Shown piece after piece: positions 8,700-16,830 of a DNA stretch of 64,000 nucleotides. The position numbers were made by a program, and so were the translations under genes. Below the pieces are notes generated by a model. The model was not told where the DNA came from. It saw only the letters and a list, made by a program, of their open reading frames with translations, and did no database searches. Position 1 is the stretch's first letter. Every line of letters begins with the position of its first letter. The DNA is from Tricholomella constricta (Eukaryota > Basidiomycota > Agaricomycetes > Agaricales > Lyophyllaceae): NCBI GenBank assembly GCA_013368375.1, contig JAACJP010000052.1, positions 62,001-126,000 on the forward strand, read 5' to 3'.

Positions 8700-9244
8700 T
8701 CAAAGTAAATCAGAATGTCCATCTGTGCAATCCCACAAGGTCTCGAGGTGTTTCTCAGCCTCAGATCCCGCGTCGATGTGTCCATTTCGGTATGCGCTCT
8801 TGAGCAGTTGGAGGGCCTCAAAGGCCTCGACAGTGAGACGGTTGCGAAGCGCAACTCCGGTAAGACCGCCACTGGAAAATGCGCGTTCCGATGGTGTTGC
8901 CGAGCCTTGGATGGCAAGGTAGTCGCGAGCAAGACGAGCAAGCGTAGGGTAATGAGATGGACCGGAGTGTTTCTGTGGGAACAATAATGAGTGGTAGTCA
9001 AAGATACCTGTATTACGACGTACCCCCCAATAACCAATAACATCCTCGACCTTCTCCAGCGGGCTCTCCAGATAGCGTTTGAGTTCATCGCGAGGGCTGG
9101 CCTGAGTGTGCTCGGCGTCTACACGTGCTCGGACAGCATTTCGGATCCAAGAATAGCCATATTGACCATTGGACTTGTCAGGGACCACTGGGTGGGACGT
9201 GAGAGAAGTGAAAGGAAGTCGGAGACGAGAAAACATACCGGCAG
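8700..9244 (-). CDS. hAT transposase, C-terminal dimerisation part
   Basis: This continues the transposase from 16823 across the nested element. The exon from 9187 reads VVPDKSNGQYGYSWIRNAVR, and an intron follows GYWG. The hAT C-terminal dimerisation motif is clear: HYPTLARLARDYLAIQGSAT, then PSERAFSSGG and LTVEAFEALQLLKSAYRNG. Stop at 8702-8700. Joining 9244 to 16831 with one copy of ACCGGCAG restores the exon and the phase of the next intron (GTATGT donor at 9238), so the transposase was intact before the inner insertion. Confidence 0.85.
9237..9244. repeat. Target-site duplication, left copy, RecQ/DUF6589 element
   Basis: ACCGGCAG next to the element end TAGTCT at 9245; identical copy at 16823-16830. 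Confidence 0.82.
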
Positions 9245-9477
9245 TAGTCTCCCAAAGGCAGTTGTAGATACTCCTTGAACCTGCAGGCTTAGGATATCCG
9301 TATCTGACGTCTGCTACCCCCTGGGCCCTGTTGTTGGGAGGGTATTTGCCGAAAGTTGGCCGAGCTCGGCAAGTCACATGATTATCAATTCTCGCTGCTT
9401 TTGCAGTCGCGTCTCGCCAAAGCGAGTCCAGTTCCTGTCGCTCGACACTATAATCTTTATGCCTCGTTTAATCTGAA

Positions 9478-12400
9478 ATGTCTACTCCATCTACAAGGCC
9501 CAATGCATCCAGCAGCTGGATCTCTGAACTGGGTCAGTTGCACCTCACCAATCTCGTGAGAACGAGGCTGGATTACACTCTGTAAGGGTTGTGACTGGGT
9601 GACACTGGAGTATATCATGCCGGATACTTATTCCCACGGGCTCTAGTTTTTACCATTGCTTTACTTTCACTACGCCTGTGTTGCTCGCTCTTCTCACTAT
9701 AGAATTGGATCAAACACACTTGTGACTGAAGCTAGGACCTCAAGACTCAACAATCTTACACTTTTTTGTGTTTCCCAGCCTCTCTGGGGCTATAGTGGAG
9801 AGACCTGCTGGCACAGCACCCACAGCTTTCTGAGCTGTTCTCTGGACGACTATCCACCTTTCTAGGCTTCTCTGGGCAGTGATTCAGTTCGCTTTCCAGT
9901 CCTACTGGTTGCTGGAAGGATTGGGTGGAGAGTGGTAGAGGTTTGGGACTGGGCCTGGTGGGGTGGTGATGATGTGGCAGGAAGTTTGGGTCATATCTTT
10001 GGAACAAAGGCGCGTATCTCTTGGGCCAATACTGCGTGGATGCGGCCCTCGCTGTTGCGCACATTTCGACCCCTGGATCATCCATTTCTGCCAACTCCTT
10101 CCCCCTCACCATCGCTTTTCATGTTTTGACATTGTCTGGCTGATATCTCGCGACCTACTGCGCCGATTCCTTCGATTCTAAGTTCGCTGCGTAGCCCTTG
10201 GCTGCCGCTTTCCGTCGATACCTGGGTCTACAGCTATCCGCGCCACGGTTCGCATCCTGCACCCGTTCTGGTGCTTTTATCCCCATCCCTGCTACCCCAA
10301 CCATCTCCCACCACCTTGGGTTGGTTCTGGGCTCATTCTCTTCGCATTTTGGGCCTCTTTCACCTCCCCATACCCTCCTACCATCATTCATATTGGTTGC
10401 TCCGAAATCTGGTCATCATCCTCTGCAGTGCCTTTGCTACTCACCCCTTGGTGCTTTATTGCATGGGACCTTGAAGTATCCGCATTTTCCTCCATGCATA
10501 GGCTGGAGATGTACTCTGAGGTATATCCTCTAGGTATTCCACGGTGTTTCCGTCCCCAATCCACCATCGTCCATCACTCTCGTTGACACCGAGCAGCGGT
10601 CGTTACATATGCGCCCTATCTCTGGTTCTTTCGTTGAGAGGCCTTGGGAGCATCTACCATTGGTTCCCTCCGCGCCTCCTCTGATTCCCTCGTCAGCCCC
10701 AGGCCACGCTTGGGGGTGGGGTCTTTGTGGTAATTCCTCCGACACGCTCTCGCTCACCCCGGGTACTGGACCACCTCCTTTCTACCGGTTGTCCATCACC
10801 CTGTCGACGCGACTATCATTCGTTCCATATGAGCCCTATCTTTGGTTCTTTCGTTGAGAGGCCTTGGGAGCATCTAACATCGGTTCCCTCCGTGCCTCCT
10901 CTGATTCCCTCGTCAGCCCCAGGTCATGCTTGGGGGTGGGGCCTTTGGAGTAATTACTCCGACATGTTTTCACTCAACTGGACGATGGACGACCCCCTTT
11001 TTCATTTGGTTACCTGATGGACTCTTTAGGTAGTGTTTTACCAGGTACAACCATTTTTTTTTCCTTTTTTCATCACCCTTTCCCTTCCACCATCTTTTCT
11101 TCAGATAGAGTCATCCTTGGGGCTGATTCTAGAGGGGGAGAATGTAAGGGTTGTGACTGGGTGACACTGGAGTATATCATGCCGGATACTTATTCCCACG
11201 GGCTCTAGTTTTTACCATTGCTTTACTTTCACTACGCCTGTGTTGCTCGCTCTTCTCACTATAGAATTGGATCAAACACACTTGTGACTGAAGCTAGGAC
11301 CTCAAGACTCAACAATCTTACACACTCCTTATGATTATCAACTCTATGCTGCGGGATGCATTTTAAATGGGCTGGATGTCATGTGCATCAATGCGACTGG
11401 AGGGGGAAAATCGGGTCTGATTTACATACCAGCCATTGCACGGAAGGACATGATCATCCTGGTGATTGAACCTACAAATTTTCTCGAGCATGACATGGTG
11501 AGTTATCAAAAATCATCAAAGAGCACTTCTGAAGCTTGATACAGGCTCGAAATCTGGGCGCTAAAGGAGTCACTGCCATTGCAATTAATGCAGAGGCCCA
11601 AGAAACAGCCCTCCGTGCAGGACGAAACCTCTGGGCAGAAGCGCAGGACTGTCGCTACCAAGTCATTACTATCTCCCCCGAGTCCTTGCGATCATCCGAG
11701 TTCGATAAGCTCCTTGCTGACCCGACCTTCTATAAGCGTTGGGGTTTGCTTGTTGTTGACGAAGTCCATCTCATTGATGAATGGGGACGAGACTTTCGAC
11801 CCCTTTATCAGGACATCTGGTCGGTACGCTCCCGTGGCCCTGATGGGCTCGTTGTTGTTGCACTCTCGGCTACCGTTGAACCTGGGCACCAAACCGATGC
11901 CATTATCCGACACTTGGGCTTTCGAAAGGGCAAATATTTTCTGGACCGACGTGACTGTGAACGCCACAACATCGACTTCATATTCCGGGATATTGAGTTC
12001 TCTTTCACAGGGCAGACATTTCGGGACCTTGACTGGCTCATTCCTCCTGGATTGAAAAAGGCATCTGATGTTCCGAAGTGCCTAGTTTACTGCGAGACCA
12101 TCGAGATGGGACATCGTATGGTAACTTATCTCCGATCACTTCTTCCTCCTCCCCTGAAGCAACACGCCCACACCGTCATCCGCCACATGCATTCTCTGAA
12201 CTGCCCAGACTGTAAATCTGAAGGCCTTGCAGCTCTGTATGAATCCGGGGATGCGAGGACCACGGCGCTGTTTGTTACGACAGCTATTTTAGAAGTTGGA
12301 ATCGATGTACCAGACATTGAGTCTGTCGTGATGTTCCCTGCTCCTCTCAGCGCATCTTCCCTCGTGCAGCGAAGTGGCCGTCCCGCCCGTGGCAGAGGGA

Positions 12401-13730
12401 TGCATGGGAAGGCCATTATTCACGTGAAGAAGACCGAGCTCGAGCTGGCTCGGAATTATGTCGAAATGAATCCTGCAGATCCACGCCTCCTCCAGAGCGA
12501 GAACAGCACTTCCACACCAACCATCCCTACTCCTGCTCCCGTCGACGCTCCCTTGCCTGCTCCCTCACCTGGTGTTCCCACTCAATCTCTCACTGTCTCT
12601 TCTCCGTTATCTAAGGCTGTTTCCACGAGCAAGATACACAGACCAGCTGCGAAAAAGAATCCTCCTAAATCCAGCGCTTCACGTCAGCCATGTTCTGCTC
12701 TGCTGCTTGTTATAGGTGCACACCTCCGCGGGTTATGTATCACGCTGCAGATCAACATGATCTACCACAACCCAAATACATCGCACAACTGTGGTCGATG
12801 CAGCTCTTGTATACCACAACCCCGTCCTCGGGCTCGAGTTTCTTCCACCTCGTCATCAGTGTCGTCTCAGGTACCCATCATGCTCCAAAGACCTGCATTT
12901 CTCCCGGCACCTACCACCAATGACAGTACTGATTCAATAAAAGCCAAGCTGCCTGGCCATCGAAAACTGACACAGAAGGACTCGGAAGAGATTTCTAATC
13001 GCCTTATCAAAGCTGCTCACCGAATCCTCTACTCAAGTATGTCCAGCGCTCCCTATACTTTATTCATATCACCGAAATGCTTCCTTCCTCCTCATTTCAT
13101 CAAAGCCATCACCACCGATCTGTATCTTATCACAACCGAAGCCATTCTCAAGGATCGTCTCGAGGGCTGGAGATACTGGGATACATGCGGACAGGCATTA
13201 TGGACCGCTCTTTCCACGATCACCTTCGAGATTGCGGCACTTCAAGATAAGCGACATGCTATTTCTTTGAGCAAGCGACGCGCTGTGACTCAGCTCAAGG
13301 TTGAGGAGCGTGTCCGTGCTCAGAACATTGCAAATGGATTGGGACACATCAAACGAGTCAAGCTTGTTCTTTCTGGCCCTTCCGAAGCCACGTTGTTAGA
13401 GCCTCGAGCCGTCGAAACTCACGCCATGCCACCAGACCGTACTCAACCCACCCACGCAGCATTGCCTCACCCAACTATCAATTTCCCTCACAAGAAGCGA
13501 ACTCTTTTGTCTGCCTCATCCCGCAATACTGCCCCTCCCAAAGTACGGCGCCAGACAAATAGTGACACTGTGCGTTTTTACTTCTATCATGATTGGCGAT
13601 GACTTATATAATGTTCTTAAAGGCTCCTTCAGTTGCTCGATCTCTGGGGAAGGAAAATTACCCAGGGCCCGGTCAATCAGATGCGTTACAACAAGGCGAG
13701 CTTCTAAAGCAAAACTTGAAACAGTTTTAA
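9478..13730 (+). CDS. RecQ-like DEAH/DEVH helicase, split by an LTR element
   Basis: An SF2 helicase that would unwind DNA with ATP. ATG at 9478. Exon 1 is 9478-9580 plus 11328-11497, separated by the LTR element 9581-11322 and one target duplication; exon 2 is 11545-13569; exon 3 is 13623-13730. Joined length is about 801 residues, in phase. Motifs: YTPYDYQLYAAGCILNGLD (Q-like motif), TGGGKS (Walker A, about 11410), DEVHLIDEWGRDFRP (motif II in the RecQ DEAH-xxSxWGHDFRP pattern, about 11760), LSATVEP (motif III), ILEVGIDVPDIE and QRSGRPARGRG (motifs V-VI). A Cys cluster ends in CGRCSSC (about 12790), like the RecQ zinc-binding subdomain. The C-terminal third is unlike known RecQ proteins. 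The LTR insertion probably inactivates this copy. Confidence 0.82.
9581..9760 (+). repeat. 5' LTR of the small LTR element
   Basis: 180 bp, TGTAAG...CTTACA; by eye identical to 11143-11322. Confidence 0.92.
10600..10985. repeat. Internal tandem duplication in the small LTR element
   Basis: A block beginning around CATATG...GGTTCTTTCGTTGAGAGGCC is present twice, at about 10605-10755 and about 10826-10985 (offset about 220 bp). Differences are scattered, for example ACCATTGG against ACATCGG. No function seen. Confidence 0.75.
11143..11322 (+). repeat. 3' LTR of the small LTR element
   Basis: 180 bp, by eye identical to 9581-9760, which implies very recent insertion. Confidence 0.92.
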
Positions 13731-13754
13731 TTCTATAGATCAACTTAATCTATT

Positions 13755-16684
13755 TTACTCGGTGTCTGAGTCGCTCTCACTGTCTGTGTCCGAATCACCT
13801 ACCACATCTCCCAATACCAGCCTTCCATCAACCATCATGCTGGGGACAAACCGAGCAGCCTCGTCACCTTCGTCGTGCCCGTCCCTACCCTCACCTTCAT
13901 TCCCATTCCCATCGTTGGCCCTGTTCCCGTCATCACTGTGAATAGCGCCAGCATCGCGAAGTGTCCGTTCAATAAATTCCTGAATTTTTTTCCCATCGCT
14001 GAACTTAAGGTATCCGACCTCAAAATCGTCACGGGCAGCATGTCCACGATGACGACCAGCACAGAATTTATGAAGGCCTTGGTCCTCCATGTTCCTTGTC
14101 AACTCCTTCAGTGCTGCCGCCCTCTTCCGTTGACGATGTACTCCACCCTTCGCCGAAATTTTGACGGACGTGTTCATGGCAGAAATTGCATTCAAGTAAT
14201 GTCGGATGTTGATGGCAATGACTTCGCGGAAGAACTTCCCGCCAAATGTCATGTCACGATGCTGCGACATTTTTTTGAGCTGTTTAATGTTCTTTTCCTG
14301 TAGAAGATCCATCGGAAACCAGCAGCCTTCAATTCCTGAAAGGTTACAGAGCCAGTTGTTCTTCACGGCGGTTTGTAGTGCCTCGCAGTATTCAAATTCA
14401 AAGTTGCATGCCAGCTCGAGCAACTCATTGGAGTACTTTGATTTGCCAGCTCCCGGGAACGTAAATGTCCAGAACTTCAAAAAGAGCGATAATAAGTAAG
14501 TATCTTGTTCACAAAGACATTCCAGGGTCCAAGTGACTTACCGACATTACGTTCAGAGCACGGCCGATGTCTCCATCCGCAATTGCGCACTGAAACTCGT
14601 AGTGCAGGACACTATCCCGCATTCGCAAAATCGTATTCGCAAGGACCTGGTCACCTTCAAATTTATCCTCCTTCCTTTCTATCCCGGAGTGACCAGGACC
14701 GACACTGGCTGTGTTCCAAGGGTCACCGATGTTAAAGAAGCTCTCAGCAAGATCACCACCTGCAAGCGCGCGACTGTATCCCTCCGTCGTCATATAGCGG
14801 TGTTGGATCTGACCAGATATTTCCAGCAGAACCTCGATTGGCATATCCTTGTTGGCGTCCTCACGGAAATATTCTGACAGATTTGAAGTCTTGAGATGTG
14901 TTCTGCAGTTTGGTCATTTCAGTCGACATTTGAGGTAGACGTAAGTCAATGCACTTACTTCCAACAATCCAAAATATCTGCCCGCAGCACATCGTATACG
15001 AGGTGTTGGGCTGGGTAATAATCAGGCCGCTTGATGTCCTTCACCTTTCGTCCGAGAAGGACATTTGTAGAGCAGAAAGAGGAAAGGTCGTCAGTCTGAG
15101 TAGATCCCCAATGTGTGTTGATGATGCGCTCGAGATCTGCCCAACCCATGTGCCACAGTTGGATGAGAGGAAGAACCCATCCGTATTGAGTATAGCCATG
15201 CGGGCACGAAGCGAGAAACTTCTTCAGAGTACGTAGCTTCTCCACCGTTGACTGATCCCCGCCGACGATGACCAGGAGCTTCTCGACCTCTTCTTTGGGC
15301 ATATTCAGCTGATTTACGAGAAGGTCGTAGAGGACCTTCGCATTCTCGGCTGTATTTCCTTCATTGAAATCGGAAGTCGCAAGAGGGTGGATGGTGGTTT
15401 TGCGCCCACGCCGCATTCGGTGGACGGCCATGGTGGTACGAAAACGGAGCTTGACAAAGTCTCGATGATGTGCCAGTTCGGGGACCTCCTCAAGCAGGAA
15501 GTCTAAGCAATGAAGGGCCATGATTGCATTGAATTTATTCCAGTCAATGCGCTTGTACAGCACCTCAAGATTAAGCCCCTTCCGCCGTTCCTCTTCCTGC
15601 GCTTTTCGAAGCTTGTCAACATCAAAAGCCAATTCAACATCACAATCCTCCAATAGAACGAACGTTGCGGCAGTCCCATTCAGTATGGTGTCGCGTTGTC
15701 CCAAGTCCGGTGTCCATGCACGAGCCATGCGATTGATGTTGTCGTAGATAAGCAAGAAGGCGCGGTGTTGTGCTTCCTCACGAATGATGGTCAATGCCGA
15801 GGTCGAAAGAGCCTTAAGAAGCTCGAGAACTGTGGAATATGCTGTTGAGAGACCGATGCGATTCAATATTGAATAAACGCCATGCGGGGATGTGTGAGCA
15901 AACAACCAGACACCGACGATCTTCTGGAATGCCGTAAATTGAAGATTTCGAGCGTTCATAAGCATGAGGTAGGCAACGAGAACAATCTGAAATGTAATGA
16001 GTAAAGCAGCATGTACAGACTATGGGCTGTACTTACAATGAGTGGGTTCCGACGGTTTTGGCCCTTTCCTGATGGTGGAGTTGTCCCGAGATGTTCAGCA
16101 TAAGAAATCGAAGAAAGCGATTGACGGATTGATCTTGGGATGGCAGTGGAAATCAAAAGACGCAAAATGGTCGGACCTTTTTTTTCAAATGTAACTAGTA
16201 CATTCTGCATCGAGAAATTCAGAATAAAGTCCCATGACGCCTCGTCGTTCGCTACATGGAACTCTTCTGATGAGACGCTATCCGCTTCCTTGTCAAGCTG
16301 ATTCTCGACCTTTTCGATAGCCCACTGATCAAGGCAGTAGCGTGCCCTGAGCTCCTTAGCACGACGAGTGGCTTGGGCAGCCTCTGCAGAACGGTTCGGG
16401 GAGTTCCTCGCAGTGACCGGGGCGCTAAAACGATGCGAATGCATCATCTCGACGATATGATGAGCGCGTACTGAAGTTGTCCCATTGAGGAATGCGGCGA
16501 CCATCTGAATCCGTGTCTGTGATAGTGTTCCGGGATGGTTGTCAAAGAGAAGTTGAAGAAAATCCCCGATGGTCCAGCCGTGCCGTTTTATCAAGCACAG
16601 AATCTCGTCGATGTGGGCTGAAGAAGTAGAGTCCAGGGTGCGGGGGTTAGTCGACGGCGCAGAGTAAGGCTGAGCGACCGGCAT
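13755..16684 (-). CDS. DUF6589-family protein, possible RNase H-fold nuclease/transposase
   Basis: Four exons (16684-16037, 15986-14959, 14902-14542, 14474-13755), GT-AG introns, about 918 residues, no stops. DUF6589 is known to me only as an uncharacterised Agaricomycete family. Visible order: a helical N-terminal region, then HRAFLLIYDNINRMAR and RDTILNGTAATFVLL, then KLLVIVGGDQSTVEKLR, a WVLPLIQLWHMGWADL helix, a TH-W-G motif (NTHWGS), then IADGDIGRALNVM, FPGAGKSKYSNELLELACNF and a very acidic C-terminus. A hydrophobic strand ending in Asp (LIYD), a second strand ending in Asp (IVGGD) and a later Glu-bearing helix (NELLELA) resemble a DDE layout; this is inference. It pairs with the helicase in one element, so it is the candidate for strand cleavage and transfer. 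Confidence 0.72.
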
Positions 16685-16822
16685 GCAGGGCTCACGAACG
16701 TTATCTCTTGATCTTTTTGCGACAAGGCATTCACAACTCCGCTACAATCTACACTGCCAACCTTAAAGCTCCGACTGAAAAACCTGACCTCTCGACAAGG
16801 GGCCCTCGGGGAATGCAGACTA

Positions 16823-16830
16823 ACCGGCAG
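16823..16830. repeat. Target-site duplication, right copy, RecQ/DUF6589 element
   Basis: ACCGGCAG directly after AGACTA (ending at 16822); identical to 9237-9244. Confidence 0.82.

Follow-up and report, generated by a model that had tools for sequence, protein, structure and literature searches.

Introduction

AcademH DNA transposons are reportedly the subject of Kojima 2020, Mob DNA 11:15. Helitrons, to our knowledge, make no target duplication, and the duplications of P elements are 8 bp long. Why some cut-and-paste transposons encode their own helicase is, as far as we know, an open question. In the passages drawn on here, AcademH elements are described as helicase-encoding transposons with target duplications of 9 or 10 bp (PMC10045372), and as low-copy elements of three fungal phyla (PMC10799480). 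Excerpts of further sources describe staggered cuts of 17 nt in P elements (PMC7776569), end-joined excision footprints composed of the overhang and the duplications (PMC3878927), and 8-bp duplications in Zisupton/KDZ elements (PMC12730594).

The window analysed here is a stretch of 64,000 nucleotides, C52:62001-126000, from a genome of 44.1 Mb in 118 contigs (designated Cn). The spliced genes mark the host as a eukaryote. It contains an element with a helicase gene and a DUF6589 gene, assigned to family A, and its insertion into a host exon is delimited by the following features.

9245..16822, no strand: whole family A element, 7578 bp including an LTR insertion, recognized from its ends, 8-bp duplication, second copy and empty paralogous sites
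9237..9244, no strand: target-site duplication ACCGGCAG, left copy
16823..16830, no strand: target-site duplication ACCGGCAG, right copy
8700..9236, minus strand: host hAT transposase exon, portion left of the insertion, recognized from Dimer_Tnp_hAT and empty paralogues

The insertion in the window

The element begins with TAGTCT at 9245 and ends with AGACTA at 16822, and ACCGGCAG flanks it on both sides. The hAT flanks, joined with one ACCGGCAG, form a single minus-strand hAT frame of 205 aa, and the element-free junction is found at C1:2309093-2309332 (100%), C14:112956-113195 (98%), and C45:44246-44480 (81%). The initial annotation had proposed TAGTCT inverted ends, 8-bp duplications, and an insertion inside a hAT exon, and the restored frame with its three uninterrupted genome copies bears this out. 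A second family A copy of 5831 bp lies at C2:528606-534436, differs from the window copy by 7 bases in 5830 compared positions, and is flanked by a different 8-bp duplication, GCTACTTA. A chance origin of the window duplication is ruled out by the three empty hAT sites and the other duplication of the C2 copy. A 9-bp duplication in the window (ACCGGCAGT) is likewise ruled out, since the C2 copy permits 8 bp only. That the window element is a transposon is close to certain.

Genes of the element

The coding part of the element comprises two genes and a second, smaller insertion.

9478..13730, plus strand: RecQ-like helicase gene in pieces 9478-9580, 11328-11497, 11545-13569, and 13623-13730, mapped from the C2 model
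9581..11322, no strand: short LTR element inside a helicase exon, with LTRs at 9581-9760 and 11143-11322 and CACTC at 9576-9580 and 11323-11327
13755..16684, minus strand: DUF6589 gene, probable DDE-type transposase, with four exons that encode 918 aa on C2; PF20231; conserved D298, D460, and E739

The two genes had been read as intact and convergent with their stops 24 bp apart. The layout and the spacing agree with the gene models built on the C2 copy. Intactness holds for DUF6589, all exons of which are open in the window, but not for the helicase: its first exon is interrupted by an element of 1742 bp that has a pair of identical LTRs, 180 bp each, and a 5-bp CACTC duplication. The site of this LTR insertion is unoccupied in the C2 copy. 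The helicase of the window copy is therefore broken, and the identity of the two LTRs suggests that the insertion is recent. The earlier reading had overlooked this insertion as well as the terminal unit and the scars considered below.

On the C2 copy, the helicase has 801 aa and is closest to RecQ helicases. The element encodes a superfamily II helicase (Helicase_C at 39.7 bits, above the cut-off), and the match to TIGR00614 (recQ_fam) reaches 81.3 bits with an E value of 6e-23, below the cut-off of 219.8. Judged by these profiles, the protein is RecQ-like and not a curated RecQ. DUF6589, correctly identified at the outset, is matched by Pfam PF20231 in three exons, and the only other Pfam match in its exons is a sub-threshold one to DUF2786. 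D298 and D460 are conserved in all nine DUF6589 sequences compared, and E739 in all eight that have data at this position. The three residues look like a DDE triad, and their conservation suggests that DUF6589 may be a DDE enzyme. The single-sequence structure model of the 336-aa DUF6589 exon is poor (pLDDT 43), and searches of solved structures gave no relative of DUF6589. The exon showed no relatives in viral or prokaryotic contigs, phages, or plasmids, an Rfam search gave no match, and a literature search on DUF6589 found nothing. From the sequence comparison, DUF6589 probably cuts and joins the DNA of the element.

Related families in the genome

At least 18 DUF6589 loci and at least 16 helicase loci are present in the genome, and 15 of the 16 helicase loci adjoin DUF6589. 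Among the matches listed, the helicase locus without DUF6589 is C7:1278k only, and the DUF6589 loci without a helicase match are C7:612k, C2:2058k, and C2:2072k. Thirteen of the 15 shared loci are convergent and two are divergent; the divergent pairs lie at C6:935172-940354 and C13:467919-469024.

Thirteen copies were examined on both sides: family A at C52 and C2; family B at C35, C61, and C19; family C at C21, C5, C7, C9 (a short copy), and C1; family D at C10 and C6; and family F at C38. Clean target duplications were found in nine of them. Family A has duplications of 8 bp in its two copies, family B of 10 bp in two copies (GTTGCGTGGT and GGTAATGAGT), family C of 9 bp in four copies (GTGTTGGGC, ATAAAGACT, TGTCAAAAG, and GTTCAAAGG), and family F of 9 bp in one copy (TCCCGTTCC). 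The family C copy on C5 has both ends and no duplication, the family B copy on C19 is truncated at one end and lacks a clean duplication, and neither family D copy (C10, C6) has a clean duplication. In the D copy on C6, 8 shared bases, TTACATGC, sit 4 bases off the element end. Within this one genome, the refuting check named in the initial annotation did not overturn its proposal: the genes are paired at 15 of 16 helicase loci, and 9 of 13 copies have clean duplications. Its main proposal, a self-contained mobile element, is supported by the pairing, ends, duplications, and empty sites, and the conserved acidic triad agrees with its suggestion that DUF6589 does the cutting and joining.

Several copies show structural peculiarities. 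The inverted repeats of family D are about 130 bp long with a hairpin inside, and the C6 copy has about 2 kb inserted within one repeat. In the family B copy at C61:75435-84899, roughly 9 kb, apparently an internal insertion, separate the helicase gene from its end, and the duplication is intact. Inspected by eye, the pair at C11:51-56k (L017 1-190, L065) seems to be bounded on both sides by a long inverted repeat of near-identical sequence.

The terminal unit and its lone copies

At one end of the element, a short terminal unit lies outside the inverted repeat. The corresponding features in the window are as follows.

9245..9308, plus strand: terminal unit of 62-64 bp, situated outboard of the inverted repeat and recurring by itself at 11 further sites
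9309..9341, plus strand: helicase-end inner inverted repeat, GTCTGCTACCCCC..., where the best local alignment with the opposite end begins, at position 65
16788..16820, minus strand: DUF6589-end inverted repeat, TA followed by GTCTGCATTCCCC..., placed by the same alignment

When the two ends of each family are aligned, the match begins at 65 in family A, 53 in family C, and 61 in family F. The alignment score of A (24 vs a best of 27 in 500 shuffles) is within the shuffle range and by itself does not establish a repeat, and the scores of C (66 vs a best of 28) and F (62 vs a best of 26) are far above it. The terminal inverted repeats measure 44-48 bp in C and about 60 bp in F, and are also present in B. 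In A, C, and F, the inner boundary of the unit coincides to within 1-2 bp with the start of the inverted repeat. The end bearing the unit is the helicase end in A and F and the DUF6589 end in C. Family B has hairpin units at both ends; its two-end alignment runs from the first base, so these units do not lie beyond the repeat as those of A, C, and F do.

Thirty-six isolated terminal units, each about 40-64 bp long, are present in the genome: 11 of family A, 14 independent ones of family C, and 11 of family F, always from the unit-bearing end. The search with the helicase end of A gave 13 matches, comprising the two full copies and 11 lone units of the outermost 62-64 bp (one of 46). The search with the DUF6589 end of C gave 26 matches, namely nine ends of longer copies, the helicase end of the C1 copy, and 16 lone units; three of these (L077-L079) share their flanks and were counted once, which reduces 16 loci to 14. 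Family F was searched after the pattern had been seen in A and C, with lone units expected beforehand, and they were found: its helicase end gave 13 matches, two longer copies and 11 lone units, and its other end and duplication were located later. Family D yielded no lone units among the best matches listed. In family B, two lone pieces, L089 (C37:56625) and L090 (C30:219464), consist of 33 bp of the helicase end and 27 bp of the DUF6589 end. They have an ambiguous duplication and are not counted among the 36; they share the right flank and differ in the left one, and thus seem to lie within a larger repeat.

Perfect duplications of the length typical of the family surround 16 of the 36 lone units (5 of 11 in A, 6 of 14 in C, 5 of 11 in F). 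A further seven have duplications with one mismatch (A 1, C 4, F 2), and 13 have none within one mismatch. In a control with swapped flanks, perfect duplications were found in 0/110 combinations for A, 0/182 for C, and 0/90 for F (10 of its 11 loci), and one-mismatch duplications in 2/110, 1/182, and 0/90, respectively. Mapped on the parent ends, the longest lone units reach position 64 in A, 52 in C, and 61 in F, and GTCTG follows immediately in all three families. Lone units surrounded by duplications of family length would reveal that such elements, rare in themselves, were once active. An origin as introns, an idea suggested by their size, was set aside, as the units are without the usual splice ends.

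Origin of the lone units

Since the unit ends where the inverted repeat starts, the excising cut seems to fall at the repeat, with the unit remaining in place. On the evidence of their boundaries and flanks, the lone units are likely scars of such excision. The shortened units (40-50 in C, 55-60 in F), one extra base at L086, and duplications that by eye are partly lost at L101 and L107 fit end joining and trimming. In this genome, no site was observed both full and scarred.

The same units could instead be independent, MITE-like micro-elements mobilized by the same transposase. Duplications of family length and the nearly fixed ends of the family A units would suit micro-elements, but the inner ends are variable, at 40-52 in C and 55-61 in F, and have no inverted end motif in common. 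Moreover, among the best matches listed, the opposite end in A and C does not occur by itself in the way that the unit does: the DUF6589 end of A has no lone copies apart from a tandem pair on C60. We regard this origin as highly improbable. The members of the C60 pair (L048 at 59029, L049 at 61256) are about 2.2 kb apart, and each matches 75 bp of the DUF6589 end of A at 84-85%. The other end of C has a single 38-bp match, C9:105560-105597, among the best matches listed.

A further reading arises from the folding of the ends. The element might be excised cleanly and the gap repaired from a sister copy, with the new strand of the copied end forming a hairpin, dropping off, and being joined across as a tail. 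The unit ends of B (z -4.50 and -2.63), C (-2.81), and F (-3.13) fold better than shuffles, the opposite ends of A (0.61) and C (1.08) fold no better, and many lone units of C and F take in just a few bases of the second arm of the hairpin, all of which would be expected from aborted repair. Family A is at odds with it: shuffled sequences fold as well as its unit end (z 0.15), yet its lone units are the most uniform, mostly 62 or 64 bp, and this z value also speaks against the hairpin as a general cause of scars. In addition, if the stops were random, they should not fall in three families at the point where the inverted repeat begins. Interrupted repair is rated as improbable, and excision at the inverted repeat is retained as the likely source of the lone units.

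A proposed model of staggered excision

In the proposed mechanism, insertion would take place via the outer edge of the unit, while excision would cleave immediately ahead of GTCT at the inverted repeat, leaving the unit and the target duplications as a scar. Of the two strands, the transferred one would be cleaved at the outer edge and its partner 50-64 nt further in, and the donor and the transposon would each retain one strand of the unit. The helicase would separate the strands of the unit, aided by the hairpin where one is present, and the donor tail would then be trimmed and end-joined. A staggered cut reconciles the outer-edge insertion of full copies with units that end at the inverted repeat. 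With a stagger of 50-64 nt, the strands would need active separation, which is a plausible task for the encoded helicase.

If both strands were instead cut flush at the inverted repeat, the scars would be identical, and they therefore do not by themselves establish the stagger. A rival view holds that the element has two alternative ends, in which the outer TAGTCTC moves the whole element and a flush cut at the inner repeat releases the core and leaves the unit, the helicase being otherwise employed. Such an arrangement makes a long stagger unnecessary and agrees with the GTCT common to the outer edge and the inner repeat, a motif that directly follows the longest lone units. Occasional reinsertion would, however, be expected of a released core that has inverted repeats, so that copies without the unit are predicted. 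Among the best matches listed, no A, C, or F copy begins at the inner repeat without the unit, against 36 lone units, and the sole match starting at 53 in the C search is the helicase end of the C1 copy; this counts mildly against alternative ends, which we consider unlikely.

The ends, duplications, gene pairing, and lone units with their boundaries are read directly from the sequence; the excision origin of the units, the stagger, and the task of the helicase are deduced from them. A staggered cut with the participation of the helicase is put forward tentatively, at somewhat less than even chances. Slightly more doubtful is the strongest form of the proposal, in which the stagger is extreme, the element's own RecQ-like helicase unzips the unit, and this task would be the reason why such transposons carry a helicase. 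The account as a whole, that of a low-copy cut-and-paste transposon with AcademH-type coding content, a DDE-like DUF6589 protein, a RecQ-like helicase, and scar-leaving staggered excision, is judged about evenly balanced between right and wrong.

If excision leaves the unit of 50-64 bases together with the duplications, every scar marks an earlier excision and serves as a dated record of it. Should the model be true, the cut site could be read from genomes, the helicase would gain a testable role in parting the two strands of the unit, and the long staggered cut, given as 17 nt for P elements in the excerpt cited (PMC7776569), would be extended to three times that length.

Comparison with known transposons

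Helitrons resemble the present element in encoding a helicase and differ from it in that target duplications are present here; no Helitron domain is among the Pfam matches. Zisupton/KDZ elements share the 8-bp duplications with family A, and the profile search gave no Pfam match to a KDZ transposase (Zisupton, Kyakuja, Dileera). The P element is comparable in its excision, since a staggered cut inside the end, 17 nt in the passages of PMC7776569 used here, would leave end sequence in the footprint. In contrast, the cut proposed here would span 50-64 nt, would affect one end only, and would occur in an element that encodes a helicase. The profile search gave no Pfam match to a P-type transposase, and the domain exons of the gene give DUF6589 only. 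Among the titles and abstract openings listed, the literature on one-sided or hairpin-linked excision footprints contained nothing similar.

In its coding content, the element is of the AcademH type. The initial annotation had called the element undescribed, which is probably wrong, as the consulted part of PMC10045372 describes AcademH with a helicase and duplications of 9-10 bp. The element is probably of this known kind, a likeness drawn from published descriptions of coding content and duplications. Both combine a transposase and a helicase in one element and have terminal inverted repeats, and duplications of 9 bp (C, F) or 10 bp (B) occur here. Family A in the window differs, as it makes duplications of 8 bp (two copies). 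This value is outside the 9 or 10 bp quoted in the excerpt for AcademH (PMC10045372), which would favor a separate, DUF6589-based superfamily. Against such a separation, the joint presence of transposase and helicase and the 9-10 bp duplications of B, C, and F match AcademH as portrayed in the available parts of its descriptions (PMC10045372, PMC10799480), and a superfamily apart from AcademH is considered rather unlikely. Relative to AcademH, as far as the accessible portions of its descriptions extend, the element is set apart by the unit outside the inverted repeat and by the scars, which are absent from those portions; the terminal unit and its scars form the new part.
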